NCBI GenBank assembly: GCA_027627225.1
Contig: CM051036.1
Location: 40,186,926 to 40,250,925, forward strand
Source of the DNA: Congeria kusceri
Lineage: Eukaryota; Mollusca; Bivalvia; Myida; Dreissenidae
DNA: 64,000 nucleotides
Reading direction: 5' to 3'
The position numbers were made by a program, and so were the translations under genes. Below the pieces are notes generated by a model. That model did no database searches. It had not been told where the DNA came from and saw nothing but the letters and a program-made list of their open reading frames with translations. Below are positions 12,201 through 61,614 of the stretch, piece by piece (within the stretch, counting starts at the first letter, position 1; every line of letters begins with the position of its first letter).

Positions 12201-15200
12201 ATTACCAACAGCTGAATAACAACCTTTACTATTATAGTTGCAGGTAGTACGTATTTTCGTTTACTGTATATGTAACCTGGTTTTTTAATACATAATGAGG
12301 ATATTTACACTTTTGTCAGCACATCAGCACATGTAAAACCATTATTGGCAGATATAAATAATTGCAAACATTTTGAATTTCATACAGTCGAATTGTCAAA
12401 TACTTATGTAGAGCATTTCACGATGTGTTGTTTACAAACATGTGAACAAAATGACGAACTTACACTTTTTTTAGCCCATGTAAAATCGTTATTGAAAGTT
12501 ATAAACACTAGCAAAACTTTAAAAAATCGTACACTTGAACTGTCAAATATAGTTTTTTTCAAGAAATATTGTTTGCGCGCATATAACGAGAATAACGATC
12601 AGACTGTAAACGACCTGTCTGTAAAAAATGAACCATCCAAAAATAAACGCACTTTGCCTGGAGCACAAGAGCCAGTATACCGGACAGAAAAGCTGCCGAT
12701 GCTGAAGTTCCCCTGAATTTGGTCGTGCATTTAATTTTAGGGTCAATACCTGTCGTTGTCGTCTGCAAAAATGTGAAAGTAAAGGCAGTGTTTAAATAGA
12801 TTTATATTGGTGTCTAATAAACATATTTTATTAGAACCTCCCACCCCCCACCCCCACTAAAACAGCACAAGATAAATCATCATACCGGTCAGGTTTGATC
12901 CGTTATTTATAACATAGCATTTTTGTAAATACATGTAATAACAACGTTAAATAACAATTATAATGTACGAAAGTTAACAAACATACAATATTTGTTATCG
13001 AATACGTTATTAAAAGGTGTATTAACTTTATCAAAGTAATAGTTTTTAGAATTATACTATTTTACTTAATCAATTTCATGTGTTGTGGTTAAGTAATATG
13101 CAACATTTGTACGGTTATTGTTAGAAATACAGTACTATTCCTTCAGACGTCAAGGAGAACCCCTGAGCCAGTGCTGATGTAAGGACTGCAGCGTTGTTGG
13201 ACACAGACGCCGGAACGTTTCCATTTGGGCCAATACCGCTGACGACAAATGTGTGAATGTTGTTTTCAAAACCACTTCCTATTTTCGCTGATGGATATAC
13301 AAACAACGATCCTTTGGCATGTCTTCCCTAAAATGGTATACATGTAGCACAGTAATATTACACCAATGCATGGCTGCCTGGGTTCTTGTGTGTTGTTTTA
13401 TATTAAGGGGAATGTCAAACATGCATGATCCATAACAATGGTCCATAACAATACGATATTAAAATTAATAGTAATACGTTAGATGTTTTAGAGAATTTAT
13501 TTTATATCTGCAAGACAACAATGTATTTGATTCCTTTATTTTGTCATTACAATTTTATTTATTTTCAAATGACATTGTTCATACATATTCAATCAAAACC
13601 GTATAGCGTTCTAAATACGTACATGTATGTCTTTCGCACCTGTTGATGTTAATATTTATACTTTGTTTGACTTTAATATGCCCTAGTTAGACGACTAAAA
13701 CGTCAATAAATAAAAACTAATTTTGCTACAATCAACATAGATTGGTTCGCAATAAACATAAGTGTGAACTACATACAAATGCGTCCAGAGTAACTGTTAA
13801 ATGTTTATATTTATTTTGTAAAAAATTGTCGAATAAATGTATACAGGTTTCAAATGATTTCTGCGTGCCATCTTACATAAAGGATGTATCATCAGCAAAC
13901 ACAGATTTGTTTTATTTGATTACTTTAGCTTATGTACACTTTTTATTTCTTGGTTTGGAAAACAAGACTTTAACAACAGCTAGCGTGTCTGTTATATTTA
14001 TTTTTTGTTGTTGGTATAAATAACTATTCTCCAGAAAACAATATTGGAAAGAACAATGTACTACATGTGTGTTTCAATGCGCATCTTACTATATTGCATG
14101 TTCTATAACTTTTAAAAATATATAGAGTAGGATTACATACATTTATTGTACCCCTTTCCAACACAGCTTCAGTGGCTATGTCGTTGTTATGAAAAGTCTG
14201 GTCGTAACAATATGTGTTCACGTATATTGAGATTGTATCTGCTCTATGTGCTAATCCACGAGCAATATTGTCGTTGTCTGCGAGAATGCCAACTGTGACG
14301 TCCAGAAGAGCCACATTCATGACTGAAATCAGATTTGTTTAACTGCATTTACATTATCAAAGCAATAGCTTATATACATGTAGAGATCTACTATCACGGT
14401 TATGATAGACTCATAACTGGTTCAATATATTGCAAAGACCGTTCAAGGTGTACATTAAATCTATCAATAATATATCGATACTTTTTCTCAGATTTAAACT
14501 ATAAAATGATAAAAGCAGTGACAAGTCTTACTGGCTAAGTTCGCTTTATAGGCAACACCCTTTTCGCATGTTGCACTGGCGTTGCTGTACGCTGACAGAA
14601 GTCCACAGACATTCGTGCCATGGCTGATGAAATATGAATACAAACTAAGCTCAGAAGTTTACAGATATTGGTGCCATGGCTGATGAAATATCAATACAAG
14701 AAAGCTCAGAACTCCACATACATTTGTACCAAGACTGATACAAACGATACAATACAAACAAAACTCAGAAGCTCGCAGACATTTGTACAATGAACTATAA
14801 AATAGCAAAACTAACAAAACCCATAAGTTTGCAGGCACTTTACTGATGAAATATCAATAAAAAACAAAGCTCAGCACTACACAGTCATTGGAACCATGAC
14901 TGATGAAATTATAATACAAATACAGCTCAGAAGAGCACATGCATTGGTACCACGACTAATGAATTATCAATACAAACTATGTTCAGAGTGCACAGACATT
15001 TGTACCATGACTGATAAAAAAAAAGTTGCTATTACAAACCTACTAGCATTCCATTGCCAAAATAAAGTAAGAACAAATGAATTCATGTATTATAATTAAT
15101 ATTACATTTATAATTGATAAATTATTAATAACAATATCAATCGTAATGCAATCGTAATCGTCACGGAACTGATACAATATAATTCACTTACTCCTGAGAC

Positions 15201-21909: not shown

Positions 21910-22579
21910 TAGATTAAAAATATTTTTACGTTTTAATAACAACATAAGAATCACTTGTTATAAAATTATAAATATAAATTTATTAATCACAAACGGTCAT
22001 TTATGCAAGCTGAAGTAAAAAGACAATCAATTTGAATGTTCATAATTAACAAAAGTGCCTTCAAATTGATATACCATCAGCATTAAAGTACTTCTATTTA
22101 TAGAATTCAGCTTTTCGTATTTCATATTTGTATGACTGTCAAAAATAGGAATTATTTTTGCAATAAATCACCAATAATTTTTGGAAAGGAAAATCAACAC
22201 TTGTCAATGCAGCTGGCATTTTCGTTTGTTTCTATAGGACTTATATTGACACAAATTTTATTTAAAAAATATGGAATGCTATAACACAAGCAAAAGCATC
22301 TACGAAACAAAATTTTAAATCAATAAATATTCGATGTTTATAAAGGTTCCAAATCGAATATGATTTTTTTGGCAAAATTTACACAGTATTTCACAATTGT
22401 GTAAATCCGATTTATATAATTAAATCAGACAGGAAGAAATTTACTGGAAATACCGAAATTTCCACCGGGTTACTCTTCTTCAGCCATGTTAAAATGCGGA
22501 TTCTTTTAATTTTAAACCGCTGTCATTATACATCGTTATTTTAGTAATTGTTCTTATGAACGATTATGGTGTTTATTCG
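21910..22579. other. Spacer between exon-1 copies
   Basis: Single-copy AT-rich sequence found only here in the triplicated region. No gene or repeat recognised. Confidence 0.45.
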
Positions 22580-24549
22580 TCCGAAATCCGTTTCTTATTT
22601 ACGAAAGGCATTGCTCAAAAGCACTTCGTACGAACGGAATATTCTATAATGTACAATTTTGTACATGCTTGTTTGCTCCAGAGTCATCACCAGTTATCGC
22701 ATAAAGAAAATAGACAATAGCAAGTTACCAAAATCTTAATAATTCACAGATTTCAATGCGTAGTTTTTGCACTTTGTTCGGTAACATGCCCATTAGAAAC
22801 ACTTTCTGCAAAGTTTAATTTTTATTAACACATGTCTGGAATGCTGCTTTAAAACCCGGGCGCGATCGTTTATCGTGACTAGTAAATATTTGTGATACCA
22901 CTTAATTTGTGCGCGAGGTTTTCCGCGTTATCTTACTAACACGAATTTAATCATGATAATTATCTTACAACGCAATCTTAATTAGTACATATTCGTGATA
23001 CCACATAAGTATTAACTGAAAATTGGATGTCAGTTCTGGGCACTTTCAGGCCTATTTTTCGTTCAGCAGATAAATATCTTACGTAGAAAAAAAAATTACA
23101 AACGCTATTTAGATATTAAAGAGAAATACCACGAACCTTAAGTGGTAACACGAATGTGTTCGCGAACCTAAAGTTGTTAGCGTATGGCAGCTCGATGCCA
23201 TCATACCGTTCGTCTTTCTACTACTAAATTGTTGGCTGGTCGCTTTAACAAAAGTACTGGATTTTACGACATGTTATCTACATGTGTGCTGATGCGAACA
23301 TTGACATAGGCGTGTGTATCAATAGTCGTAAATAACATATTTATCAAGCACATGCTCTTTACGGTTTAAGCAATAATTATGCATGTTAAATGTCAATATA
23401 ACTCGATACATGTTAAAAGTCAGCTTGTAAATCAAAACGTCAGCGCGGTCATATGACCTGACTGTCACTTTCGCTTGATCACGTGTCAAAAGGTTTAAAT
23501 GTGTTTGACAGTCAAAATTTCTCTTTCTCGGGTAATGGGAATTTATCATTGTAGACAAAATTGAGGTATAATAACATATAATGTCTATTTTATGTAGACA
23601 GGCACCTCATAATTATAACATTAATGTTTTGTATAAAGACAGACACATGCCTCATATTGTAAATTTTAAATTACATATATAAATTTTATATTTCAAACAA
23701 ATAGCTAGAATATATTTTCAAACAATTTCCGTAAATACCTTAGAGTGAAATATGTAGTCCTGCTTCTTTAAAACGTCTGAAATGTTTTCCAAATCTGCGT
23801 CGTTGAATTTGAAGAAAAATTTGTCGGTATATTCTGTCAGAGATTTTGCGTTATATTTTAATATAAAAAACAAGAACAAAAACCGGATCGACATTTTAAG
23901 CATTACTGAAACGTCAAGCTGTAAGCATCACTGTCATAGCGGTTTCATTATTCATAACAAGTCAGACACTAAAACTGTTCTATGTTTACCATCATGTGAC
24001 TTATCTTTTAATTTGATTTTAGTATGGTAAAGGCTAAAAAAACAAATTTAATGAATTGTTTCTCAGGCACATTTTCCAAAAAACCAGGAGAGAGGGCGCA
24101 TTTTTCTTAATTGAAGTATTTTTTTTTCTTTTTTCTTTTTCTCCTACTCTTTTCTATTGGCACTATGTAATGGCTTATTAAAACAAGTAAATAAGAACAT
24201 ATTAATACGGAATCCGGATAGTGCCATATGGAATATCGATATTTGAGCGATACAATATCGTGTCTCACTTCGTGTGTCGCCGGATTCTCTGGTCTCGCTT
24301 CGTGTCTCGCTTCGAGTCTCGCCTGAATATCGTATATCGCTTCGTGTCTCTTACGGTGAGGGCGAGACACGAGCATTGCGCGAGACACGAAGCGAGGCAC
24401 GATATTTTACCGCGAGACACGAAGCGAGACACGAGAATTGCGTGAAACACGAAGCGAAACACGATATTTTGCTGCGATATTTCGTGGTATAGGATACTGC
24501 GACAGTGCGCTATCTCGTGTTACAATATCTTGCCTCGCTTTGTGTCTCG
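22580..24549. repeat. Tandem duplication unit A, 1970 bp
   Basis: Nearly identical to 24550-26322 with a constant offset of 1970 bp. For example, GAAATCCGTTTCTTATTTAC starts about 22580 and again about 24550. The unit contains promoter-side sequence, the exon 1 copy at 23739-23903 and a right-truncated fold-back I element (about 24213-24549). Confidence 0.9.
23739..23903 (-). CDS. Subtilase gene A exon 1, copy 1 (signal peptide + prodomain start)
   Basis: ATG at 23903, donor AAG|GTATTT at 23739; 55 codons, phase 0. It encodes a hydrophobic signal peptide beginning MLKMSIRFLFLFFIL, then YTDKFFFKFND and KKQDYIFHSK of the S8 prodomain. It differs from the copy at 21003-21167 by a few residues (MS for IW at 4-5, K for I in the hydrophobic run, A for G in FND[A/G]D) and keeps its start, frame and donor. 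It could splice to the exon at 16495. An AG (TTACAG) about 30 bp before the ATG is conserved and could end a 5' UTR intron. Confidence 0.75.
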
Positions 24550-26322
24550 CGGAAATCCGTTTCTTATTTACGAAAGGCATTGCTCAAAAGCACTTGGTAC
24601 GAAAGGAATATACTATAATGTACAATTTTGTACATGCTTGTTTGCTCCAGAGTCATCACCTGTTATCCCATAAAGAAAATAGACCATAGCAAGTTACCAA
24701 AATCTTAATAATTCACAGATTTCAATGCATAGTTTTTGCACTTTGTTCGGTAACATGCCCATTAGAAACACTTTCTGCGAAGTTTAATTTTTATTAACAT
24801 ATGTCTGGAATGCTGCTTTAAAACCCGGGCGCGATCGTTTATCGTGACTAGTAAATATTTGTGATACCACTTAATTTGTGCGCGAGGTTTTCCGCGTTAT
24901 CTTACTAACACGAATTTAATCATGATAATTATCTTACAACGCTAATCTTAATTAGTACATATTCGTGATACCACATAAGTATTAACTGAAAATTGGATGT
25001 CAGTTCTGGGCACTTTCAGGCCTATTTTTCGTTAAGCAGATAAATATCTTACGTAGAAAAAAAAATTACAAACGCTATTTAGATATTAAAGAGAAATACC
25101 ACGAACCTTAAGTGGTAACACGAATGTGTTCGCGAACCTAAAGTTGTTATCGTATGGCAGCTCGATGCCATCATACCGTTCGTCTTTCTACTACTAAATT
25201 GTTGGCTGGTCGCTTTAACAAAAGTACTGGATTTTACGACATGTTATCTACATGTGTGCTGATGCGAACATTGACATAGGCGTGTGTATCAATAGTCGTA
25301 AATAACATATTTATCAAGCACATGCTCTTTACGGTTTAAGCAATAATTATGCATGTTAAATGTCAATATAACTCGATACATGTTAAAAGTCAGCTTGTAA
25401 ATCAAAACGTCAGCGCGGTCATATGACCTGACTGTCACTTTCGCTTGATCACGTGTCAAAAGGTTTAAATGTGTTTGACAGTCAAAATTTCTCTTTCTCG
25501 GGTAATGGGAATTTATCATTGTAGACAAAATTGAGGTATAATAACATATAATGTCTATTTTATGTAGACAGGCACCTCATAATTATAACATTAATGTTTT
25601 GTATAAAGACAGACACATGCCTCATATTGTAAATTTTAAATTACATATATAAATTTTATATTTCAAACAAATAGCTAGAATATATTTTCAAACAATTTCC
25701 GTAAATACCTTAGAGTGAAATATGTAGTCCTGCTTCTTTAAAACGTCTGAAATGTTTTCCAAATCTGCGTCGTTGAATTTGAAGAAAAATTTGTCGGTAT
25801 ATTCTGTCAGAGATTTTGCGTTATATTTTAATATAAAAAACAAGAACAAAAACCGGATCGACATTTTAAGCATTACTGAAACGTCAAGCTGTAAGCATCA
25901 CTGTCATAGCGGTTTCATTATTCATAACAAGTCAGACACTAAAACTGTTCTATGTTTACCATCATGTGACTTATCTTTTAATTTGATTTTAGTATGGTAA
26001 AGGCTAAAAAAACAAATTTAATGAATTGTTTCTCAGGCACATTTTCCAAAAAACCAGGAGAGAGGGCGCATTTTTCTTAATTGAAGTATTTTTTTTTCTT
26101 TTTTCTTTTTCTCCTACTCTTTTCTATTGGCACTATGTAATGGCTTATTAAAACAAGTAAATAAGAACATATTAATACGGAATCCGGATAGTGCCATATG
26201 GAATATCGATATTTGAGCGATACAATATCGTGTCTCACTTCGTGTGTCGCCGGATTCTCTGGTCTCGCTTCGTGTCTCGCTTCGAGTCTCGCCTGAATAT
26301 CGTATATCGCTTCGTGTCTCTT
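24550..26322. repeat. Tandem duplication unit B, truncated
   Basis: Second 1970-bp unit. Its right end breaks inside the fold-back I element (after TCTCTTAC near 26322) and fuses to a third, partial unit. Confidence 0.9.
25709..25873 (-). CDS. Subtilase gene A exon 1, copy 2
   Basis: ATG at 25873, donor at 25709. The encoded 55 residues are identical to copy 1. The flanking sequence is also nearly unchanged, so this duplication is recent. It has the same possible role: an alternative first exon or promoter for the gene at 9214-16495. Confidence 0.75.
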
Positions 26323-44839: not shown

Positions 44840-47430
44840 TACGGTGTCCTGTTACTGCCATCGTAGTTTTGCGACTTCGACGTGTGCTTATGAAAGGGCG
44901 CCGACGCACCGATACGAAACGCCGACGCGCCGCCACGATCCGCCGAAGCGATATAAACGTCGGAATATTACGGTGTCCTGTTACGCCATCGAAGTTTCTC
45001 GACTTCGACCTGTGCTAATGAAAGGGCGCCGACGCGCCGACACGATACGCCGACGCACCGACACGATACGCCGAAGCGCCGAGACGATGCGCCGAAGCGC
45101 CGACACGAAACGCCGAAGCGATATAAACGTCGTGTGTTTTTTTCATATGTGGTTATAAAATTGGGCGAAGATACGAAGATACGACGTTCATATCGCTTCG
45201 TCGCATCGTGTCGGCGCGTCGGCGACCTTTCATCAGCATAGGTCGATGTCGCGAAACTACGATGGCGATAACAGGACTCCGTACAATATCGTGTTGTTTT
45301 TTTCAGATGTGGCTATAAAATTGGGCGAAGATACGAAGATACGACGTCCATATCGCTTCGGCGCATCGTGTCGGCGCGTCGGCGCATCGTGTTGGCGCGT
45401 CGGTTCATCGTGTCGGCGTCGGCGCATCGTCTAGGCGCTTCGGCGCATCGTGTCGGTGTATCGGCGAATCGTATCGGTGCGTCGGCGTATAGTCTCGGCG
45501 CGTCGGCGACCTTTCATTTCTTAGGTCGCCGACGCGCCAACACGATACGCCGACGCGCCCAGACGATACGCCGACGTGCCGAGACGATACGCCGACGCGC
45601 CGACAGGATACGCCGAAGCGCCGACGTGCCGACACGATGCGACGAAGCTATATAAACGTCGTCTCTTCGTATCTTCGCCTAATTGTATAGCCACATATGA
45701 ACAAACCACACGAGATTGCGACGTTTATATCGCTTCGGCGTATCGTGTCGGTGCTTCGGCGTATCGTATAAATGTACATTAAACAATGGTATGAAAACAC
45801 AATTGTTTACTTGTTTAAGTTACTTATAGATATACATATTTAATATCAACATTAAAGTATTTTACAATTAAAATAAAAACAATGCTTTCAATAAGACTGT
45901 CTGCTTAATTTTGGTTTGGGTCAGAAAATATACCTACAGGTACAATTTTAGTCATGGTATATGTTTATACCTGTAGGTACAAAAGTATGCCTGTAGGTAC
46001 AGTTATGTACCTGTAGGTCCATCTATTTATTACGGTTGCACAGAGGTGACCTGCACTTCTCTTTTTTTATCTCGTTCCCACGAGATGCTAACTCGTGGGA
46101 ACGAGATACATACTCACTCGTGGGAACGAGATACTAACTCGTTGGAACGAGATACTAACTCGTGGGAACGAGATACTATGTCGAGGGAACGAGTTACTCA
46201 GTCGAGAGGACGAGATACTAAGTCGAGGGAACGAGTTAGTATCTCGTTCCCACGAGTTAGTATTTCGTTCTCACGTGTTAGAGAACCAATCAAATGTTTC
46301 CGTATATAATAATTATGTTTTTATAATAACCATGGCTGACAAAAACGATCATGTTGTAAGATAGAACTCAGTCGTTCGCTCGAGTTATTATCTCGTTACC
46401 ACGAAATAGTAAGTCGTTCCCTCGACATAGTTATTTCGTTCCCATAAGTAAGCATCTCGTTCCCACGAGTTAGTATCTCGTTCCATCGAGTTAATATATC
46501 GCGGGAACGACAAAAAAAAGTAGTTCATGTCACCTCTGTGCCACAGTAATTTATAGCTGTTGTGTTTACATTTACTTTTGACTAAAATGGTACTGCATTA
46601 TTTTATAGCCACATATGAAAAATCCACACGAGACTGCGACGTTTATATCGCTTCGGCGTATCGTGTCGGTGCTTCGGCGTATCTTGTCGGCGCTTCGGCG
46701 TATCGTCTCGGCGCTTCGGCGCATCGTTTCGGCGCGTCGGCGTATCGTCTCGGCGCGATTTCGATATTAAAGAAATAATAGGGCGCCGACGCGCCGAGAC
46801 GATACGCCGGGGCGCCGAGACGATACGCCGAATCGCAGATACGATGCGCCGAAGCGCCGAGACGATACGCCGAAGCGCCGACACAATACGCTGAAGCGCC
46901 GACTCGATACGCCGAAGCGCCGACACGATGCGCCGAAGCAATATAACCGTCGTCTCGTCGTTTTTTCCCCAATTTTATAGCCACATATAGAAAAAAACAC
47001 ACGAGATAACGACGTTTATATCGCTTCGGCCTATCGTGTCGGTGCTTCGGCGTATCGTCTCGGCGCTTGGGCTCATCTAATCGGCGCTTCGGCGTATCGT
47101 CTCGGCGCGTCGGCGTATTGTTTCGACACAATGCGCCAAAGCGCCGAGACGATACGCCGAAGCGCCGACACGATACGCCGAAGCGCCGACACGATGCGCC
47201 GACACGATGCGCCGAAGCGATATTAACGTCGTCTCGTCATATCTTCACCCAATTAAAAAGCCACAAATAAAAAAACCACACGAGATTACGACGTTTATAT
47301 CGCTTCGGCGTATCGTGTCGGCGCTTCGGCGCATCATCTCGGCGCTTCGGAGTATCGTGTCGGCGCGTCGGCGCCCTTTCATCAGCTCAGGTCGAAGTCG
47401 CGAAACTACGATGATCCCTGTCAACAACAT
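44840..47430. mobile_element. Cluster of fold-back elements, family II (21-bp subrepeats)
   Basis: One complete element is clear at 44969-45283. Its left end TACGGTGTCCTGTTACGCCA mirrors its right end ATGGCGATAACAGGACTCCG, and the next block (CTTCGACCTGTGCTAATGAA / TCATCAGCATAGGTCGATGT) also mirrors. Inside are direct 21-bp subrepeats of the type GCCGAAGCGCCGACACGAT, inverted on the other arm, around a central core (GTGG(T/C)TATAAAATTGGGCGAA). Truncated or nested copies lie at 44840-44966, 45284-45775 and 46595-47430. The last ends in the same terminal sequence (CGCGAAACTACGAT near 47400). Because 21 is a multiple of 3, frames stay open on both strands (7-residue repeats such as RRSADTI or ASAYRVG). 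I regard these as non-coding. Confidence 0.75.
46039..46542. mobile_element. Fold-back element, family III (21-bp subrepeats of another sequence)
   Basis: Ends GCACAGAGGTGAC (46039) and GTCACCTCTGTGCC (46529-46542) are inverted, followed inward by ACTTCT(T)n / A(n)GTAGT. The interior is a 21-bp repeat of the type CTCGTGGGAACGAGATAC, itself partly palindromic, in opposite orientations on the two arms. It lies between family II copies. Just outside it, at 45930-46020, is a short cluster of ACCTGTAGGTAC words. Confidence 0.75.
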
Positions 47431-47743: not shown

Positions 47744-50700
47744 CTGGACAGTGGGGGGCCACCCTCCTGGTGGGGTACACCTCCGTGAGGCTGGATTCTG
47801 CTCAGATCTATCACGAATGTTGACACATTTGTCTTGCTAAATGAAGCACCAATCTGAAAACAGCAAAAGCAGGGTACAAAAATCTTATTTATTCAATGAA
47901 GCAACATTATACTTAAAACCGCAGTCCACAGTATGTAATTCAACACATCTTAACTTGGCATTAGAACTATAATGAACGTTAACGACGTTTATTAGACTGA
48001 AACCTTTTACTTGTTTATGAAAGGCATTTGATAATGTCTACGTTCAAAAACGCTTGATACGAACTAAATATACACTAATGTACATGCTGATATACTCCAG
48101 AGTCATCACCAGCTATCGCATACAGATATTTTTACGATAAAGTTACCAAAACGTTATTATTTTGCAAATTTCAATGCGTTTTTTTTATATTTTGATCGGT
48201 AAGATGTCCATTAGAAATGATTTCTGCGAAGTTTTATTTTTATTAACATATTTCTGGACTGCTGCTTTAAGGTTTCATAGGTGAATTTTTGTTTCACAAT
48301 GTGTGTGACCACATGACCATGGAATTTCAAACTGGAGGATACTGATTGTAATACAAAATTGTATATGCTGGTATATAGGCATGCAAAGTTATAACAATCT
48401 CAATGCATTCAAAGTTATAACAACTGATAAAAAAAAAAGCATGCAAAGTTATAACAATAAATCCATGTCAAATTTTTTTAACTGCCTTTATGCTGCTTAC
48501 CAGTTGATTTTTAGCAATGCTCATGTCTGCAACCTCTCCCCAGGCTATGGGCACAGAGTCAAAGCAGTGTGTGGGCTCCCAGCCACACACCTTGAGGAAA
48601 TCCCTCACACCACTGTACAGACACATGCCCTCCGAGTCAATACATATGCTCCTGGAATGGTGAAACAAGATACAGTCAAAACATATGCTCCTGGAATGGT
48701 GAAACAAGATACAGTCAAAACATATCATGCTCCTAGAATGGTGAAACAAGATACAGACAAAACATATCATGCTCCTTGAATGGTGAAACAAGATACAGTC
48801 AAAACATATGCTCCTAGAATGGTGAAACAAGATACAGACAAAACATATGCTCTTGGAATGGTGAAACAAGATACAGTCAAAACATATGCTCCTGGAATGG
48901 TGAAACAAGATACAGTCAAAACATATGCTCCTGGAATGGTGAAACAAGATACAGTCAAAACATATGCTCCTGGGATGGTGAAACCAGATACAGTCAAAAC
49001 ATATGCTCCTGGGATGGTGAAACAAGATACAGTCAAAACATATGCTCCTGGGATGGTGAAACAAGATACAGTCAAAACATATGCTCCTGGGATGGTGAAA
49101 CCAGATACAGTCAAAACATATGCTCCTGGGATGGTGAAACAAGATACAGTCAAAACATATGCTCCTGGGATGGTGAAACAAGATACAGTCAAAACATATG
49201 CTCCTGGGATGGTGAAACCAGATACAGTCAAAACATATGCTCCTGGGATGGTGAAACAAGATACAGTCAAAACATATGCTCCTGGGATGGTGAAACAAGA
49301 TACAGTCAAAACATATGCTCCTGGGATGGTGAAACAAGATACAGTCAGAATAATATGCTCCTGTGATGTTGAAACAAGATACAGTCAGAACATGTGCTCT
49401 TGGAATGGTGAAACAAGATACAGTCAAAACATATGCTCCTGGGATGGTGAAACAAGATACAGTCAGAATAATATGCTCCTGTGATGTTGAAACAAGATAC
49501 AGTCAGAACATGTGCTCTTGGAATGGTGAAACAAGATACAGTCAAAACATATGCTCCTGGGATGGTGAAACAAGATACAGTCAAAACATATGCTCCTGGG
49601 ATGGTGAAACAAGATACAGTCAGAATAATATGCTCCTGTGATGTTGAAACAAGATACAGTCAGAACATGTGCTCTTGGAATGGTGAAACAAGATACAGTC
49701 AAAACATATGCTCCTGGGATGGTGAAACAAGATACAGTCAGAATAATATGCTCCTGTGATGGTGAAACAAGATACAGTCAAAACATATGCTCCTGGGATG
49801 GTAAAACAAGATACAGTCAGAACATATGCACCTAGAATGGTGAAACAAGATACAGTCAGAATAATATGCTCCTGGAATGGTGAAACAAGATACAGTCAAA
49901 ACATATACTCCTGGAATGGTGAAACAAGATACAGTCAGAACATCATTATGCTCCTGGAATGGTGAAACAAGATACCGTCAGAACACAAGGAAATGCCTTA
50001 CACCACTGTACAGACACATGCCCTCGGAGTCAAAACAATTGCTCCTCAAATGCAATCGTTAAACACGAGTCAGAACTGCATGAATAATGATAACATATTC
50101 AGTAACTAACTTTGGGACACGACATTTGTCACAGTGACCTTTAAGCCAAAAGACAATTGTAGGTGAAATCTTCAACTGTTATAAAATTAAATCATAAAAT
50201 GTTGGAAATACTTTGCATGCATTTACTGGGTTTGGCTACAAACAGAGATCAAGAAACATTTGAAAGTTAAAGATACTAGTACAAGGAATCTTTCCAACTG
50301 TCAATGAAGCAACTGCGACGTTGATAATGCATTAATAATTCTACTCGAAATGAGTGGGATTGAAATATATTTTTACATGAATAACTGGCATTACTTATGC
50401 TGTTGATATTTAATTTATTATTCAAAGGCATTTGTAAAGGATGATTAATCTAGATCTAGATAACACATGGCAATCAAAGCAACACATGTAGTACTCTGTA
50501 ATAACTTCATATAAAATTCAACTTATCAGTTTCTAACTTAATTACCGAGATGATACAATGGGAAGAAACCCAATATGTATATCCCACTGCCCTCAGCATA
50601 TGGCATTAACAGAAAATTTGGATGTACTCACATCAATCCAGATTTTTAAATCACTGCATTACATGTATGTAAGACCACATAACCAAATAAACATAACAAT

Positions 50701-53700
50701 ATCACAAAAAATTATTTTTCAGAGTAAATCAATGTTCGGTAAAAGATAATGCTTTGTCCTGGAAAATTAGCATTATGAAATACTGCAAAATACAAATATG
50801 TGGTGATCTTGTTTGAACAGTACAACAGTAGTTGGAATGAAACATATAATGTTTTATATTTACGTAGTGTTAAATTCCCCAAATTTGTATATGTGCACAG
50901 TAATAAGTAGTAATAGTAAATTCAATGTGACCCAAATAGACTGAAATTATCATGTTTTTTCTTAATTTCCATGTAATTATACACCTTCAATCACATAAAA
51001 TATGCAACACACAGGGAAAGGAAAAAGAAAATATGTCACATGGGCAGAATGGACCACGCATTTTCCCCTTGACACCATCCTTCCATCACCTACTTGTCGG
51101 AACTTCCAGATGCCAGGAGCATTTCATTGGGATGAAATTCTATCACGTTCACCCCAGCCGTGTGAAGACGCATGTCTGTCAACAACTTGCCGGCCGTGAG
51201 ATCCCAGATCTGCAGGGTAAAATTCTCTTAACATATTGCTACTTTAGGCTACAACATACAAACATGTTTTTTAATTACTGGTAAATCCGTGATCTGTTAA
51301 ACTGAGTGATCAATAATATTTATTGAAAATGTGTGTGGCCAGTCAGAAAGTCAGGACTACACTGTAAGTTGGTAATCAACTGAGTAGGCATTGTCATAAA
51401 ACTAATAGGGAATAGAGATCTCTAAATTTTGTGAAGGATCTTTACTCAAGAGGTTTATACATGTACTCAATCAGGTAATTGAAATTCCCTGAATTTTGTG
51501 AAGGATCTTTACTGAAAAGGTTTATACATGTACTCCAATCAGGGAATAGAGAACCCTAAATTTTGTGAAGGATCTTTACTCAAGAGGTTTATACATGTAC
51601 TTCAATGAGGTAATTGAAATCCCTAAATTTTGTGAAGGATCTTTACTCACAAGGTATATACATGTACTCCAATCAAGTAATTGAAATCCCCAAATATTGT
51701 GAATGATCTTTACTCAAGAGCTTTATACATGTACTCCAATCAGGGAACAGAGATCCCTAAATTTTGTGAAGGATCTTTACTCAAGAGCTTTATACATGTA
51801 CTCCAATCAGGGAACAGAGATCCCTAAATTTTGTGAAGGATCTTTACTCAAGAGCTTTATACATGTACTCCAATCAGGTAATTGAAATCCCTAAATTTTG
51901 TGAAGGATCTTTACTTAAAAGATTTATACATGTACTCCAAATCAGGAAATAGAGATCCCTAAATTTTGAGAAAGATCTTTACTTAAGAGCTTTATACATG
52001 TACTCCAATCAGGTAATTGAAATCCCTAAATTTTGTGAATAATCTTTACTCAAGAGCTTTATACATGTACTCCAATCAGGGAACAGAGATCCCTAAATTT
52101 TGTGAAGGATCTTTACTCAAGAGCTTTATACATGTACTCCAATCAGGGAACAGAGATCCCTAAATTTTGTGAAGGATCTTTACTCAAGAGCTTTATACAT
52201 GTACTCCAATCAGGTAATTGAAATCCCTAAATTTTATGAAGGATCTTTACTCAAGAGCTTTATACATGTACTCCAATCAGGGAACAGACATCCCTAAATT
52301 TTGTGAAGGATCTTTACTCAAGAGCTTTATACATGTACTCCAATCAGGTAATTGAAATCCCTAAATTTTGTGAAGGATCTTTACTTAAAAGGTTTATACA
52401 TGTACTCCAATCAGGAAATAGAGATCCCTAAATTTTGAGAAGGATCTTTATTCACAAGGTTAATACATGTACTCCAATCAGGTAATTGAAATCCCTAAAT
52501 TTTGTCAATAATCTTTACTCAAGAGCTTTATACATGTACTCCAATCAGGGAACAGAGATCCCTACATTTTGTGAAGGATCTTTACTCAAGAGCTTTATAC
52601 ATGTACTCCAATCAGGGAACAGAGATCCCTAAATTTTGTGAAGGATCATTACTCAAGAGCTTTATACATGTACTCCAATCAGGTAATTGAAATCCCTAAA
52701 TTTTGTGAAGGATCTTTACTCAAAAGGTTTATACATGTACTTCAATCAGGGAATAGAGATCCCTAAATTTTGAGAAAGATCTGTACTCACAATGTTTATA
52801 CATGTACTCCAATCAGGTAATTGAAATCCCTAAATTTTCTGAAGGATCTTTACTCAAAAGGTTTATACATGTACTCCAATCAGGGAATAGAGATCCCTTA
52901 ATTTTGAGAAGGATCTTTACTCACAGGGTTTATACATGTACTCCAATCAGGTAATTGAAATCCCTAAATTTTCTGAAGGATCTTTACTCAAGAGCTTTAT
53001 ACATCTACTCTAATCAGGGAATAGAGATCCCTAAATTTTGTGAAGGATCTTTACTCACAAGGTTTATACATGTACTCCAATCAGGGAATAGAGAACGCTA
53101 AATTTTGTGAAGGATCTTTACTCAAGAGCTTTATGCATGTACTCCAATCAGGGAACAGAGATCCCTAAATTTTGTGATGGATCTTTACTCACGAGGTTTA
53201 TACATGTACTCCAATCAGGGAACAGAGATCCCTAAATTTTGTGAAGGATCTTTACTCAAGAGTTTTATACATATACTCCAATCAGGGAATAGAGATCCCT
53301 AAATTTTGTGAAGGATCTTTACTCAAGAGCTTTATACATCTACTCTAATCAGGGAATAGAGATCCCTAAATTTTGTGAAGGATCTTTACTCACAAGGTTT
53401 ATCTATGAAATCCAATCAAGCTGAACATACATTTTAACAGAAAAATAACTACAAGTGCAGGTTAATTATGAGGCGCATCGTGGGAAAACCGGACTTAATG
53501 CATGTGCGAAAAGTGTCGTCCCAGATTAGCCTGTGCAGTCCGCACAGGCTAATCTGGGACGGCACTTTCTGCCTACAGTGGATTTATGTTTAGAAGAGAC
53601 TTCATTGAAACAGAAAATACCATAAAAGCGGAAAGTGCTATCCCGGATTAGCCTGTGCGGACTGCCCAGGCTAATCCGGGACGACACTCTACGCACATGC

Positions 53701-56700
53701 ATTAAGTCCGGTTTTTCCACGACGCGCCTCATATGAAGTATGTTTCCCAGGACTGATCACAATTTTGTTGAAATTGCATAATGCTGTTGACAATGTTGAA
53801 TGTAATAAATGGACACAGCAGGAGATTAGGCAGTATGCAAGCAAATGAGGTCTTCAGAAGTACCCTAGTAGCAATATGATGACCAGACCTATAAAGAGTA
53901 AAGTGTATCACAAGTTACCAACTAATGCTAATTCCTCAGGGAAGTAGGATCATTTAAAAGGGAGGAAAACTGCCTATAACTACCAAGGTTAACACAAAGC
54001 ATTTCTTTAACACTGTCAAAGAATAAAATTAAACATTTGAAAAACCATATGACTGTCACTAATAAACTTGCACATTTGCCTTCATACATGTAATTTATAA
54101 TGAATTACCTACCTTTATGAGACTGTCTTCTCCGCCTGTGGCAATCCATTTACCGTCGGGACTAAACCTTAATGTATTCACTGGGTTGCTGTGACCCTTG
54201 TATGTGTATATACAGCCTTTACGGCGAATATCCCACAGCTGAAATAAATAATACAACTAACTCTGTATGTGTATTTATTATATACCTGCTGTTTTTATGC
54301 GATCAAAATGTACTGTATTCAACATTCAAATACCAGAATGCGTATTCGCTACTATCCCACAGCTGAAATAAATAATACAACCAACTCTGTATGTGTATTT
54401 ATTATATACCGGCTGTTTTTCTGCCATCAAATTGTACTGTATTCAACATTCAAATACCAGAATGCGTATTCGCTACTAGCGTTTTCCTATCCCGTATCAC
54501 CGGACTACTTTTGATGTCAAAAACATGCGATCGAATTCGGAAATAATCGGAATGCATTATTATTTACAACTTCAATACTGTACGTGTAGATCTAGATATC
54601 TAGTATGTAATATAATTTTATAAAATAAACAGAACATAAATAAAAGCAGTTTATAATTTTAACTCCTGTAAACGTTTCTTCCTAGAGGCACCCGGTACAG
54701 CATTTCTTCAGACATCACTCATCGTTCAACATATCCAGAAACAAAAAAGTTTACTGCTGTTTTATCAATATCAACTTGTATTATTCAATTCCACCTTCGT
54801 AAAATAAAAGGCAAAAGAGAATAACAGACAGTGATGGTGTTTTATTGTGTATTTAATCTAAAACAAATTAGATGAAATAATAATTATAATATCCACTTAA
54901 CAAAGCAACACAAATCCATTCGCAGCTAATGTTTTTACCAAGTTGTAAATTACGTCATATAATGACGTCATCAAAACACAACTCATTCCCGCGAAAAACA
55001 TTCTTTACGTATCTGTGACATAAAATAGTTCATGATTCGTTTTGGTTTTTTTAAGGAATAATATGCTGAAAAGGTATATAATAAATGGAATATTATATTA
55101 GTATGGTGTTCTGAGTCTCGTTGGTTGTGTCAAGTAGCATCGCACGAGAGGCTGCACCTCTCGTGCGATACGACTTAACAATACCAACTTGACTGATACA
55201 TGTTCTCAGAACACCATACTAGCATAATATTCTATATATACAGCCTTTACGACGAATATATAACACTGCTTAAATAAAGAATACAACTAACTCTATTCTA
55301 TATGTGTATTATACAGCCTTTATGGTGAATATTACACAGTCGAAATAAAAAATATCACTAATTTTGAAGTGTATGGCAGTCTTGGAATTTAATTTTTTCG
55401 ACTCACTTAACTGAAATGTTAAAAATGCGTGAAATAACTTAACTTTAGCTGTTTTGCATAGATCCTTGGTAATTAGCATTTTGTTATGGCAAACGAAATA
55501 CACATTTTAATGGCTAAAGAGTTATCCTACTTTGACAAAAGAGTTGCAGACAAGTGACCTACCTTTATTGTACTGTCTTTAGACCCTGATGCTGCATAAT
55601 CACCGTACGGATGGAAATCTAGACTGCGTACACTGGCTTTGTGTCCTGTTAGTGTCCGTAATACTGAAAAATATTGAACCAGTTGTAATCAGGACAAAAA
55701 ATACGATTTCTTGAAAATTACAGCAAAGAAATAAAAACTATATAGATTTATTGTTATAGAAAATGGAGAACATTATTTACATAAACAAAATGGAAACTAA
55801 TGCAATATTTATAGGCCTTCAATAACCTTGTCGCAGCACTTTTTGGAAAAACAAATACATACAAAAGAAGATTAAATCCATGAGCATGGCACTTATACTG
55901 TAGCTATCATTTAATCCACACAAAAGTATCACTCACACAGTTGGCATTCCTGTCAAACATGTACATCATTATTTCAATGAAACCTTTTAAAATGCCCCAC
56001 AATGGATCAAATGCGCCACACGTAATCTAGCAGCTCAAATCATATTTATAAACAAGACACTGTGTTTGATAAACACAGATGAGTACTGAACAATAACTAG
56101 CACAAGTTAAATGCCATACTTTTAGCCTCCTCGAGGTTCCATATTTTGAGAGCGCCAGACACTGAGCCAGCCACCACCATCTCCTCATTGTGCCCGAACC
56201 TCACGCTGTCCACGGCCGTCGTATGGCCTGCCAGGCTCTGTAAGCGATAACAACAATTGGTACTTAAACACAGGTGACTTTGTAAGGAACAACACTTGAC
56301 ACTCAGCAACAGGGGAATGTGAACTGTCCAAAAACTTTTCAAACTTTTGTCAACATCAAAATTAATGGTTAAAAGCCTGAAACAAAAGTATTTCTGACTT
56401 CATGTAAGTATTTCATAAATTCAAATCAAATTTTTTTATCTGAAATATCCATTCCAACATAATCAATGATCTTGAAAACTAAAATAATTTGTACCAGACA
56501 CATTGTGCTATAATAAAACCCATGCATAATATGTTGTGCAAGCCCATTTGCTTGTGACAGGCTAAAATAATATTGGCAATTAGTCAATTTAATGAGATTT
56601 CTACCTTAAAGTGATTTTCATATACTGCAGCCTGACATTTTTTTAGTTTTTTCCTAAAAATACTTTCCCAAAGGCTGGTAAAGTGTTATTATATTATAAG

Positions 56701-59700
56701 CATTGCAATATATATGAATCAAGAGTTTTTGTTTTGATTTAAGAATTTAATTGCTGTGGGCGTTATGCAAATTAGGCATAATTTTCATAACCAAAGGTGG
56801 ATATAAACTTTACTTTTAACTGCCTAAGGGCCGCAACTAAGGTGTAGACTCCCGTGTAGGAGTCTCGGTTTTAGTTTAGGGTTCATCTAACAGCGTTTCC
56901 AATATCTCCTCAGACATTGCAAATCATTGTTGATCATTTTTATAGTGGATTTTCTGGTAAAACAATTCAAATTTCCAAATATGCATTTACAATGCAACAT
57001 CGCAACACCAGCAACCAATAAATCAGTCATTTTGTTTACGAACGATAATGCATACATCGTAAACGTTCATGTAAAACAATGACGTCATTTTGCAAATAGC
57101 AAATTAATTTTTTTTTGTTAAGGTTCGTGCAAAACAATGACGCCATTTTGCAAATACAGAATGAAAAGGAAGTACGGTCATGAATAATAACGAGGTAATT
57201 TGCATTTTGCAGCCGGTTCATCGGGGTATGAATGACAGGTCACGTGGGCAGATTATCCAATCAGAATGCAGCATTTAGGCGAACATGCAAAAAGTTGCAA
57301 TTACTTATAAATATTTTGGGAACAAAGTGAATACCAGTTGTCAATGCAGACAAGTGAAAGAGCACCCCACTCAGTGGAGTCACTTGGCCAAGACATGTGG
57401 AAGTTAAAACCTGTGTATACCAGTAATCCCTGAAAACGCAGATAGAATCTGATTGAGATTGTGTGAAGCTCTTGACATAAACAATACTTGTAATTGCTCA
57501 AATTCTGTACAGATAATATATCTAAAAGATCAATCAAAATAAGGGGGGAAAGAATGGAAAACAGTTTGGAAATAAACTATTCTGTACATAATAAAATGTA
57601 GCTAAAAAACAGAAAGATGGATTCTATATTGCCATGGATCTTTTTTACTGCAATCTTATTTTCCAACTTTACAAATTGATAAGTATGTATGAGAAATGTA
57701 TGTGTAGTTATACACTGTAATTCTAAATTGGTTCAATCATATTATATAATTATATTTAATGTATATTGTTTAAGACCAAAACCATAAAGAAAAGATAGCT
57801 CTATCTTCACACAAGTTCAGATTTCTTTTTGAAGTCAGCTGATAATTCCTAATGTCATGATTACATAATCTACCTAAAGTACCATATATATTTAAAAGAT
57901 CACCATCAAATTAAAATCATGCAGAGCATTACTTGCCATAATTAACAGTATTAAGAACATATTACCATTAAAATTCTTTGTCCTCAGTTTACTTAACATT
58001 TTCAATGCCATTTATTACAAAGAAATAGTTATTGGCATTTCACTACACTGGTTATAAATTTCAATACCTTTGTTAGCAATTTTTCTCCTAGTTAAATTGC
58101 CAAATGGGCCAAGATGCTCAATCTAATTAAACAGCACAGACAAAGTTATGTAATGCCTTGTCTACCATGGTTATACACCAAAAGTACCCTTGTTACTCTT
58201 GTTGTTACTTTTGTTAGCAATGTTTGCTCCAAGTCTTGTTACTCACCAACAAGGATTCAAAGTCTCCTGGATTGGAGTGTAGTGTCTAGATGTTAATAGA
58301 TGATTTTGTTAGATATTTTGAAACACTTTCAAGGCACACGTTATACAAGCAACAAAATGCAATATATATGTGTCGAAAGCTATACGCATCAACCAAAAAA
58401 TGATTGTTAAAAATATTGTGGTATGGAATAATTGGTATCAAAATCCCAAAGATGGAATTGTTTAGACCTAGATAAGCCATTTATGAAAAAAACAGAAAAT
58501 TATAATTATTTGTAAAAATAAATGGTTTGTAATCTAATTCAATACATAGTTAGGGAATGATGCAGTGAAATAGCAAAAGCTGCAATCTGCTCCTTTTTGC
58601 CCCCCACTCCTGCCGCTCTCTTAACAGGTGACTAGTCAACACATGTTGAAATTCAAAATATATAATGTACTGGTATATGCTATTGTGTAAATATAATATG
58701 ATGTGACATTGTTTAAGAACATTTTTTGAAGCATAAGAAGTATAGACCCCCTAAAGTTATCACATTAAAATTTTCTAAATTCTCATTAATTCCCGTAAGA
58801 CATACATGTAGACTCTCTTCCAATGGGCCATTCCAACATTCTCCCAATGGTTGAAAACAATCACAATAGCAAGCAAACAATGATGGCCTACCATGATGCA
58901 ATTAGGTTTGCCTGCTGTCCACAGGTTCACCTTCCTGTCTTCGCCTCCCGTTACCATCACCCGGCCTGTCTTGTGGCCCATCGCCAGGCAGTTCACGTTC
59001 CCTCCATGGGCTAAAAACTCCTCTGTGAACACAGTAATTACTTATTTTTGATATATTACAAACACAAGAATATGTGAGTAGAGAGTAAAACTTGGCTATT
59101 TCAAACACAATTTCTGGGTAAACACTGTACAGTACAGCTCAGGCTAAACGAAAATTGTGCATGCTGCCAGAGTGTCAGGAAGTCAGAATGTTCGATTCAC
59201 ATAAAAATTGCTTGGTATATCTACGTGGAGTGGTGGCCATTATCCGCGCTGCAATTAAGCCAGCGTGTTTGCTTGGATGATTGATATCTAGTGAAGCTAC
59301 ATAATTATGTAGATATACTTATAATTTAATGATGTACTATGAGTTAACTAACTCAATCACCCTAGCTCTGCGATATGTTTGTTATCACCAAAACTCCACG
59401 AAATATGTTTGTTTTGCTAGACACATACTGTAGTGTAAGCCACACATTTGTACATTCAATTCTGATATGACATGTTTCTGGCAACAGCCATTCTCCCATT
59501 CTCAGAGATTTTTTAAACTGTTTTTGTTTGTTATTTGTCTTGTTTACAATTTATTAAATAATCCATAATTTGTGTCTAATTTTTTTACTTTCATTCCAGA
59601 TTTGAACAAACCAATAAAAGGCCAAAGTGGTTGATGAAGTAATCGATGTAATTTATTAGATGCATACTGAATGTTTTATCCAAACAATTATTAGATCATT

Positions 59701-61614
59701 CATTTATTTGTCAAGTGTTCATTATTATTGATAATATCTACAGATAGTTTGCCAGACATATTGCCCAAGGCTGGAAATTAATGACTAACTGCGAAGGAGC
59801 AATGTTGATGGGGTCATATGAAATGAGATACAGATATATGGATTATCCACTTCTGACTTTGACATTTTGCTATTGCATTACACTTTAACAGATAAACAAC
59901 AGTCTGTTTGGATTTTTCGCCGTATTCAACAGTATTTCAGTCATACAACGGCGGTCAGTTAACCTACTCACTCTATTCCTGGGTAAGCCGGTTTACCAGT
60001 ATTAAGTGCACATACTTATGCCAGTAAATGACAACTGCCCTACTTCAATCAGAGGTAGGGGGCGAATGGCAGTAGAAATAATTTCATGACCAATCCCCAC
60101 ACAAGTTATGTGGCCGGGCTGGGAATCGAACCCGCGATCCTCGGAGATGATTAACAGTTAATCTGGGGACTTTTAGCTTCTGACTTAATGAAACTTAATG
60201 AGTAATTTGGAACCTTTTAGTTGCCGACCCAACAGTAATTGAAACTGACAGACACTTAATGAGCCATTAGGAAAAAAATCTCCAAAAATTACGAAACATG
60301 ACAAAAAAATAATTTCTAAGTGTCCCAAAATTGAGAGTCACGAAAAATAATTATTTCAGATTTTCGCGGGGTCCCATCTTTCAGAGTGTAATTATGGCAG
60401 ATGATAGCTATACTTGTAAGCCCTATGCAAACATTGAGCTACTTTTTGTATGGGCAATGTTTGCTGATGGGCTATACCGGGGAAGGACCATTTCTGTGGT
60501 GGAAAGTTTTCCTTCTTTGTCTTTATTGTTCTGACAGGATTTTAATCGCTTCTTTCACAACCCGAAATAAGATAGTTATTGTAAACTGATTGCAATACAA
60601 GTTACATACCTGGACAGATAAACCATCCCTAATAATATTCCAAAAATATTTGTACGAAAACATTTTCATTTTGCATGCCCGAGTCATTTAAACCTACACA
60701 CTATTGCATTTTAAAATAATGTCGCAGTCCTCCACTGTGTAAACTTTAACCGATATTCTGCTTCGATGAATGGATTGCGTCATTTTGATTGGTCTGTCGA
60801 TTCAATTAATAACTACATTCGTCATCCGATTGGTTGAAGCTTTTGGCTGAAGTTTAAAGGAGGCAAAATAATGGTGGTCTGTACATAGATGTAGTGGATT
60901 AACACACAAGTTTAAATTGGAATTAAATGAATGTCCAAGGTTAATTTCGGCACATGTTAATCACTAATCAGTTTAGGTGTTGTTTAAGTAAAATAAGTTG
61001 ATAGATAACTCTGTTGTCGCAAATAATGGAAATTTATGAAAATTAAAATTTTTAGGTTTCCACCACATACATGGTCTTTCGGCGATGAGACGTTCCAGAA
61101 AGTTCAGCCCTATATAAAAAGTAACACTAAATTTGCAGCACCTCGCATGAATTTGACTAGGTAGATGTGGGATGAAGATTGGGTCAAATGTTAATTGGTC
61201 CCACAGCCTAAGCGTTCCTGTGCATATGTGTCCCATTTCAAGACTAAGTGTCTCATCTATGTAGTATATAGAGATACTTGTACACGACTTGGCAGGGTTG
61301 AAAGTGTAAATTGGTGATGATTAGGTGACAAGTGGGCAAGACTCTTTTACTAATTAGGTGGTCACTAGACTGTAGACACTGCAGTGTACTGTCAACAATC
61401 TATAATTAATAAGTTAATGATAAATGAACGTGAAGTTACATAATGTCAGTCATTTAAGTTGTAAACGCAAAGAAAGTAGAATCAGAACAATGTAGAGTAT
61501 CACTGAATGAAAGAATTTTGTCTTTATTTTGGACGAATTGAAGTGAAGGAATGCGATTGTGAATCTACTAAAAATTGACTTACGAAGTTTCCAGGCTCTT
61601 TTGGTTTGAGCCAT
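47744..61614 (-). CDS. KATNB1: Katanin p80 WD40 subunit B1-like gene, WD40 exons only
   Basis: Exons 5'->3' on the minus strand: 61614-61584 ([10 protein letters not shown]), 59022-58892, 56237-56120, 55663-55563, 54238-54113, 51209-51094, 48651-48501, 47853-47744. They follow the katanin p80 propeller in order: [11 protein letters not shown] and [87 protein letters not shown]...[32 protein letters not shown]. Phases agree at every junction. Katanin p80 targets the p60 microtubule-severing ATPase. Gaps: the exon for the expected FWDLE blade between 51094 and 48651 was not found (the flanking exons would still join in frame), and the C-terminal p60-binding (con80) region is absent from the window. 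It is either further downstream, past the subtilase genes, or lost. The introns carry two minisatellites. Confidence 0.85.
47880..48490. repeat. Intron with diverged copy of the subtilase upstream repeat
   Basis: About 48030-48272 is a diverged copy of 22595-22850 (shared words CTCCAGAGTCATCACCAG, TATCGCATA, GTTACCAAAA, CTGCTTTAA). This repeat family is therefore dispersed and not specific to the subtilase promoter. The rest of the intron is AT-rich, with three short GCAAAGTTATAACAA words near 48383-48455. Confidence 0.65.
48651..49975 (-). repeat. KATNB1: 39-bp minisatellite made of a splice acceptor plus WD40 exon start
   Basis: About 34 units of 39 bp. On the minus strand each contains TTTCACCATTCCAG|GAGCAT, a consensus-like 3' splice site followed by the first codons of the adjacent WD40 exon (SIC[F/I]D). 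From about 49427 down to the exon the array is an uninterrupted frame of 13-residue repeats ([13 protein letters not shown]) running straight into [14 protein letters not shown]. Variant units (CCAGAT for CAAGAT) recur every third unit between 48960 and 49270, giving a 117-bp higher-order repeat. Beyond 49345, 40-bp units (AATAATATGCTCC) break the frame. Confidence 0.9.
49980..50045 (-). pseudogene. Partial duplicate of the WD40 exon at the far end of the 39-bp array
   Basis: On the minus strand this encodes [18 protein letters not shown] then a stop, a decayed copy of the exon at 48651-48501. The array is thus bracketed by two copies of the exon start, as expected if the array grew from a duplicated exon boundary. 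Confidence 0.8.
50100..51090. other. Intron where an expected WD40 exon was not found
   Basis: AT-rich sequence between the exon at 51209-51094 and the duplicated exon piece at 50045. I searched the minus strand for a tryptophan-aspartate or similar blade end and found nothing convincing. Confidence 0.4.
51405..53405. repeat. 67-bp minisatellite, about 30 units
   Basis: Repeats of the type ATCCCTAAATTTTGTGAAGG, then ATCTTTACTCAAGAGCTTTA, then ACATGTACTCCAATCAGG, with a 67-bp spacing (for example about 51734 to 51801). Units alternate between AGGGAACAGAG and AGGTAATTGAA variants, suggesting higher-order structure. It lies in the intron between the exons at 54113 and 51209 of the katanin-like gene and does not derive from an exon that I can see. 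Confidence 0.9.
53469..53731. mobile_element. Fold-back MITE, copy 2
   Basis: Same family as 39745-39999: ends TGAGGCGCATCGTGG / CCACGACGCGCCTCA, the same AATGCATGTGCG subterminal block and nested palindromes, flanked by TA on both sides. Arms are better preserved than in copy 1, so this insertion is probably younger. Confidence 0.85.
54230..54477 (-). repeat. Duplicated acceptor and start of a WD40 exon, about 124 bp x2
   Basis: TATCCCACAGCTGAAATAAA starts near 54230 and again near 54354, followed by the same roughly 100 bp. On the minus strand both carry ATTTATTTCAG|CTGTGGGATA, the acceptor and first codons (LWDI) of the exon at 54238-54113. The second copy continues into a stop. Confidence 0.85.
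55087..55236. mobile_element. Hairpin MITE
   Basis: AATATTATATTAGTATGGTG...TCTGAG at the left is mirrored by CTCAGAACACCATACTAGCA...TAATATT at the right. The centre holds a second palindrome, ATCGCACGAGAGG...CCTCTCGTGCGAT. About 150 bp, non-coding, in the intron between the exons at 55563 and 54238 of the katanin-like gene. Confidence 0.8.
55238..55370 (-). repeat. Two more diverged copies of the same WD40 exon start
   Basis: TACAGCCTTTACGACGAATA (about 55239) and TACAGCCTTTATGGTGAATA (about 55311) match TACAGCCTTTACGGCGAATA inside the exon at 54238-54113. Each is followed by a decayed acceptor region (GCTTAAATAAAGAATACAAC; GTCGAAATAAAAAATATC). They lie about 1 kb upstream of the real exon, beside the hairpin MITE. 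Confidence 0.7.
56400..58700. other. Large katanin-like intron, non-coding
   Basis: AT-rich. About 57060-57160 has a local duplication (CAAAACAATGACG(T/C)CATTTTGCAAATA twice, 57 bp apart). About 56840-56865 has a small hairpin (AGACTCCCGTGTAGGAGTCT). No other feature recognised. Confidence 0.5.
59910..60180 (-). mobile_element. tRNA-derived SINE (bivalve type)
   Basis: On the minus strand a pol III B-box-like GGTTCGATTCCCAGC lies near 60120-60135 after GGATCGCG, as in tRNA-derived SINE heads. It is followed by a body ending TTGTATGACTGAAATACTGT and TGAATACGGCG (near 59920-59950), which I recognise from memory as the tail region of SINEs common in bivalves. No intact A box or cloverleaf is visible, so it is not a tRNA gene. 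In intron 1 of the katanin-like gene. Confidence 0.65.
60200..61580. other. Proximal part of katanin-like intron 1
   Basis: AT-rich, with no exon or repeat recognised. Confidence 0.4.

Follow-up and report, generated by a model that had tools for sequence, protein, structure and literature searches.

What is a minisatellite built of 34 candidate 3' splice sites doing directly upstream of a katanin exon: does it lengthen the encoded protein in a regulated manner, or has it simply grown there? Such an array lies on the minus strand of the window, by which we mean the whole 64-kb stretch of DNA that was analyzed (C13:40186926-40250925), and a preliminary description of it had considered both a neutral expansion and a functional insertion. 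We assign a probability of roughly 85% to the reading that this is a 39-bp boundary-tandem "mirage" array within a truncated KATNB1 duplicate, which likely grew through replication slippage or unequal exchange and which we predict to be mostly neutral.

A tandem array of candidate splice acceptors

TRF analysis of the region yielded a period of 39 and 91% matches; at 34.3 copies and a score of 2161, the array is far beyond what chance would produce. Together with 34 unit anchors, this substantiates the earlier account of an acceptor minisatellite of about 34 units beside a katanin-like exon, the latter being exon 8 of KATNB1. The 34 units comprise 16 distinct sequences, and the common one reads GTATCTTGTTTCACCAT(T/C)CCAGGAGCATATGTTTTGACT on the gene (minus) strand. 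It contains a TGAC ~24 nt 5' of the AG, together with a pyrimidine tract, CAG and 16 nt of exon start, most units ending in ..ACCAT(T/C)CCAG before and GAGCAT after the candidate junction. Both the TGAC ~24 nt upstream and a YAG followed by G are intact in 27/34 units, and the position of the TGAC suggests that it may serve as a branch point.

According to a pyrimidine-based score, a home-made proxy rather than a trained splice model, all 34 acceptors rank at or above the 88th percentile of the 3146 minus-strand AGs, with a median at the 99th; by the same simple measure, the median of 27 homology-defined acceptors in the window is at the 91st percentile. The repeat runs across an exon-intron boundary, as mirages do: its last unit is the native intron-exon boundary of exon 8, and a longer, decayed second copy of the start of this exon, already noted in the preliminary description, does cap its far end (Table 1). 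A search of Rfam at the gathering threshold returned no match anywhere in the 64-kb window, and the open reading frame of the array had none in Pfam.

Table 1. Positions in the window of the array, the KATNB1 exons and the other acceptor-spanning repeats
Feature	Position	Strand	Basis
39-bp minisatellite, 34 units	48635..49985	-	TRF and 34 unit anchors; each unit = candidate 3' splice site with 16 nt of exon start
Native acceptor: TGACT branch-point-like site (putative role), pyrimidine tract, CAG	48652..48678	-	Sequence; 99th percentile of 3146 minus-strand AGs by the home-made score
Decayed second exon-8 start at the far end of the array	49987..50049	-	tblastn LRSNCFDSEGMCLYSGVRHFL, 76% identity over 21 residues; alignment
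KATNB1 exons 1-5 of the truncated copy	54113..61614	-	
KATNB1 exon 6, nearest KATNB1 exon upstream of the array in the window copy	51094..51209	-	
Intron without exon 7	49986..51093	-	Single 243-bp gap relative to the complete copy (alignment of four copies)
KATNB1 exon 8, native, 151 nt, with intact AG (acceptor) and GT (donor)	48501..48651	-	87% identity, Dreissena polymorpha KATNB1 residues 232-285
KATNB1 exon 9, last found in the window	47744..47853	-	100% identity, P0121 residues 283-318
Second acceptor-spanning repeat, 124 bp x 2, KATNB1 exon 5	54229..54478	-	In 3/6 copies, not in the complete gene
Third acceptor-spanning repeat, ~56 bp x 7.7, HGTNVCG exon of the second furin-like gene	14596..15019	-	

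The host gene and its five relatives

Compared with KATNB1 of D. polymorpha, which is the closest protein to the joined exons among the matches listed (89% over 45% of the query, other bivalves following), the window gene is a truncated duplicate of KATNB1 (katanin p80) that holds exons 1-6, 8 and 9. Nothing corresponding to residues 319-677, which follow exon 9, was detectable within the 64-kb window. Exon 7 (TVKFWDLETFQLICSTDQDASPVR) encodes a stretch that is present in 120/120 KATNB1 relatives among the matches listed (best 120), and no exon-7 peptide was found between 51094 and 49986 (shuffle P 0.47). A candidate degenerate exon 7 near 50650 (DLKIWIDV) was rejected on the same whole-interval value and because the complete copy described below has its exon 7 elsewhere, the stretch in question being intronic there. 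The propeller of the window copy is without the 24 residues of exon 7, and the combination of a full WD40 propeller and a C-terminal con80 region that characterizes KATNB1 is not found in it. The intron between exons 5 and 6 harbors a further minisatellite (51407-53418, 67 bp x 30), whose marker motif is counted 22-23 times in the copies with 34 units described below and 13-14 times in the others.

A search of the genome (1.549 Gb, 1071 contigs) for the array locus identified six copies, all on one contig and within 0.55 Mb (C13:39.71-40.24 Mb). One of them, at C13:39.700-39.725 Mb, is complete: its match to the D. polymorpha protein extends over residues 11-677, and it includes exon 1, has an open exon 7 and carries 20 array units. 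C-terminal exons were found only at this place by a whole-genome protein search, among the 66/780 candidates that were scored. The other five are truncated fragments with exons 1-9, with or without exon 7, distributed over ~0.55 Mb (C13:39.700-40.249 Mb, loci L001-L030), and the one in the window adjoins furin-like protease genes. All five end at residue 318, as judged from ~15-22 kb downstream of exon 9 (47 kb in the window), and they carry 34, 34, 34, 15 and 15 units; the length instability that typifies mirages is therefore seen across six paralogous copies.

The copies fall into groups. Units number 34 in the window copy and in those at 39.93 and 40.04 Mb, all three of which are without exon 7 and have in common a 124-bp duplication of the exon-5 acceptor region; in the window copy the loss of exon 7 corresponds to the aligned 243-bp gap, and spacing is identical in the other two. 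The 39.84- and 40.15-Mb copies, with 15 units each, contain a stop within exon 7, and exon 6 of the former is also disrupted. Between groups there are 9-13 mismatches in 772-782 bp of flank, compared to 0-2 within them, and in exons 2-9 without exon 7 the window and complete copies are separated by 5 synonymous and 2 nonsynonymous changes. The length of the array changed at least twice between groups and is unchanged within them, one 34-unit copy differing from the window array in three units. Because the ten distal and the last three, exon-proximal units of the window array correspond within one substitution to those of each of the three shorter arrays, the changes in length must be internal. 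Moreover, presence of the array in all six copies implies that their common ancestor probably had it, before the gene was duplicated.

Reading frame through the array and protein evidence

A stop-to-stop open reading frame of 344 codons (49502-48471, minus strand) runs from within the array into exon 8, in agreement with the earlier statement that the frame is open from about 49427. When the first AG of each unit is joined to the exon at 51209-51094, 18/34 acceptors, the native one among them, give an open in-frame reading up to the 48501 donor, and the remaining 16 meet a stop. It had also been proposed that splicing n units upstream would add n blocks without a frameshift; this holds for acceptors from 49320 down, with the exception of 48851, and additionally for 49398, but not for the other acceptors of the distal half, where frame-shifting units of 40 and 43 bp are located. 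In the exception, a proximal acceptor, a change of CCAG to CCAAG displaces the site by one. Counted in the same way, native site included, in-frame open acceptors amount to 18/34 in three copies, 12/20 in the complete copy and 7/15 in two; joining the complete copy to its own exon-7 end leaves its count at 12/20, with the other 8 leading to a stop or a frameshift.

The open frame follows from the fact that 39 = 3 x 13 and that two of the three reading frames of the unit are free of stops. Each array includes 4 to 6 units that break the frame (40 and 43 bp); at the same time, from the last 40-bp unit onward to the exon, the lengths of the units are all divisible by 3 in every copy (18, 11 and 6 in the 34-, 20- and 15-unit arrays, respectively, native included). 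This exon-proximal run could be read as a sign of selection on frame, although few independent indel events are visible. Selection on frame was nevertheless set aside as unproven, considering that divisibility of 39 by 3 has a prior of 1/3, that two frames are free of stops, that frame-breaking units are found in every copy and that the two further boundary repeats are built of 124- and 56-bp units.

The 13-residue repeat (SICFDCILFHHP(S)R) occurs in 0/240 proteins from two KATNB1 searches (best 120 of 1688 and best 120 of 5007); the query of the second search held 17 units, and a repeat-bearing protein is expected to rank high in it. Among the best 120 KATNB1 relatives listed, 0/120 have the repeat and 3/120 have any length change at that place, and the KATNB1 protein of D. 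polymorpha, a relative of this bivalve, is without it. Modeled with AlphaFold2 from its single sequence, the array peptide forms beta strands with pLDDT near 90 over approximately the first 100 residues (mean 71). This beta stack was set aside, for it resembles the confident, unrealistic beta-solenoids that AlphaFold2 is described as giving for perfect repeats (PMC11795689).

Other boundary-spanning repeats and the furin-like neighbors

More than one gene is affected, as is the case for mirages: a second array spans the acceptor of KATNB1 exon 5, and a third that of an exon of a furin-like gene whose HGTNVCG sequence we take to be the catalytic-His motif (Table 1). Neither 124 nor 56 is a multiple of 3, and use of the upstream acceptor of the 124-bp duplication would lead to a stop. 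Repeats make up 13% of the window, and 3/27 acceptors lie in arrays, compared to a mean of 3.5 in 20,000 random circular shifts. A nearby copy of the site's own 30-mer accompanies 3/27 acceptors and 0/27 donors, vs 21.5% of 400 random 30-mers. In view of both comparisons for acceptors, an enrichment of repeats at these sites was rejected. The absence of donors from arrays (0/27 vs a mean of 3.5 expected, P 0.09) is poorly predicted by random placement and may hint, on small numbers, at a lower tolerance of arrays by donors or by whole exons. The list of splice sites behind these counts is homology-based, and several of the furin-like sites in it are uncertain; the acceptors of exons P1a, P1m, P2a and P2m and the donors of exons P1m, P2a, P2k, P2l and P2m, for which there is no clear site, were left out.

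The protease genes themselves are two furin-like (kpc-1-like) genes in tandem (44420-34894 and 17743-9220, minus strand). D. polymorpha proteins are the top matches of the second (58% over 99%), and the first aligns to another protein of that species; a comparison of three furin-like matches with the KATNB1 match indicates that the KATNB1/furin-like neighborhood is probably conserved in D. polymorpha. From these protein matches and that of KATNB1, the bivalve is likely a Dreissena mussel. The first, weak furin-like match lies ~3.4 kb past exon 9, across GC-rich 21-bp satellite arrays in both orientations (44899-47373) that separate the first furin-like gene from KATNB1 exon 9. A furin-like first exon (prodomain start) is present in three near-copies at 25843, 23873 and 21137, with repeated flanks (20985-25897), and a reverse-transcriptase fragment of a retroelement (RVT_1) occupies 19330-20067.

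Proposed origin and present state

The motif TTNTGACT is found in the intron just 5' of the pyrimidine tract and again at exon nucleotides 10-17, as seen in the array units as well as the decayed copy at the far end; native exon 8 has one change in the exon motif, which now reads TATTGACT. This microhomology, which flanks the acceptor, likely seeded the array: slippage or duplication between the two motifs would produce exactly the observed unit. The Phe-Asp codons would thereby supply the branch-point-like site of the next unit, and most units would thus come to carry a branch-point-like site, a pyrimidine tract, an AG and an exon start of their own. The array was probably in place before gene duplication and would have changed in length internally thereafter. 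The exon-proximal acceptor is predicted to be the main splice site, with the upstream copies used occasionally and giving rise to extra 13-residue blocks or premature stops.

The most likely state of the array is neutral to mildly costly. Regarding the two possibilities raised at the outset, neutral expansion is supported because array lengths differ among the six copies, because frame-breaking units are found in every one of them, because the other boundary repeats measure 124 and 56 bp and because the number of acceptors within repeats is in line with random placement. A functional insertion is not supported, since 0/240 listed proteins have the repeat and the propeller of the window copy already lacks a segment. 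What counts against the neutral view is that the upstream acceptors are not visibly weakened; with 27/34 units intact and 34/34 acceptors at or above the 88th percentile, regular use of some of them is plausible. The exon-proximal run of units divisible by 3 and the absence of donors from arrays also weigh against it.

Alternative explanations

Of the other explanations, the one that fares best is improbable: the array could be slightly harmful, with near-identical acceptors in competition lowering correct splicing of exon 8, and could owe its persistence to drift or to the success of the proximal acceptor. The tandem arrangement of strong-looking, near-identical acceptors and the number of these that lead to stops speak for such a cost. 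However, the only complete KATNB1 copy found among the scored candidates bears the array, and therefore any cost must be tolerable; furthermore, the mirages of amphioxus, known from Adh3 and the globins BflGb6 and BflGb9, reportedly do not interfere with regular splicing (PMC3087553).

More doubtful still is a length-variable module of alternative splicing, in which a functional katanin p80 would gain n x 13 residues between propeller blades through the use of upstream acceptors. The in-frame open acceptors (18/34 in the window, 12/20 in the complete copy), their strong appearance by the simple score and the retention of a 20-unit array by the complete gene all agree with it, but as many as 16/34 and 8/20 acceptors, respectively, lead to stops or frameshifts, and openness in frame has a prior of ~2/9 from unit length and frames alone. 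In addition to the absence of the repeat from, and the rarity of any length change in, the 120 listed KATNB1 relatives, the confident beta model of the array peptide has the look of an AlphaFold2 artefact (PMC11795689). The splicing idea of the preliminary description may hold only for the complete 20-unit copy. A variant that we consider marginally less probable again would make the 20 tandem acceptors of the complete gene a graded splicing rheostat, whose in-frame sites insert n 13-residue blocks between two blades of the propeller and whose out-of-frame distal sites kill the mRNA; if this were true, array length would tune katanin output and would differ between copies, as it probably would between individuals.

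An origin of the array or of the six copies in misassembly, to which the near-identity of three copies over 782 bp of flank (0-1 mismatches) might point, is highly unlikely given the private changes of the copy groups (exon-7 deletion, exon-7 stop, 124-bp duplication and array lengths) and the flank mismatches between them.

Relation to known systems and significance

A human interferon-induced transcript, presumably IFI6/6-16/G1P3, is said by the title of the paper on it to contain a minisatellite with multiple splice donors. As here, units of a tandem repeat act as alternative splice sites, or are candidates for doing so; in that transcript, however, they are donors whose use is reported, whereas those of the present array are acceptors predicted from sequence.

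The original amphioxus paper on mirages, dealing with Adh, is reportedly that in NAR in 2002. The mirage-type reading that we prefer is based on what the array has in common with these elements: a minisatellite-like tandem duplication across an intron-exon boundary, many repeats that keep their splice signals, a variable copy number and the involvement of several genes per genome, as described for amphioxus (PMC3087553). It differs in its bivalve host and in having up to 34 units, compared to the 3-6 given for BflGb6 (PMC3087553); unlike in amphioxus, moreover, the 39-bp unit is a multiple of 3 and itself spans a candidate 3' splice site with a branch-point-like motif, and the array has been carried along in a cluster of gene duplications.

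In genes of human segmental duplications, variable internal tandem repeats at exon-intron boundaries are described as changing splicing (PMC2812944). Like the array studied here, these are variable minisatellites at boundaries of recently duplicated genes; they average four 30-bp units according to that account and have transcription support (PMC2812944), whereas the arrays of the KATNB1 cluster have 15-34 units and are described here at the level of sequence. Among the papers listed for minisatellites at splice sites or in Dreissena and for tandem arrays in the origin of introns, no report of a boundary-spanning minisatellite of a bivalve was found.

In summary, a bivalve would join amphioxus and the duplicated genes of humans as a setting for boundary-spanning "mirage" minisatellites, the number of units here far exceeding that of the amphioxus globin case. 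Its six copies constitute a natural series of 15, 20 and 34 near-identical acceptors that includes one complete gene. With this series it becomes possible to test how the spliceosome selects one of tens of near-equal 3' splice sites, each with its own branch-point-like motif, and also whether such arrays feed the gain of introns and exons.
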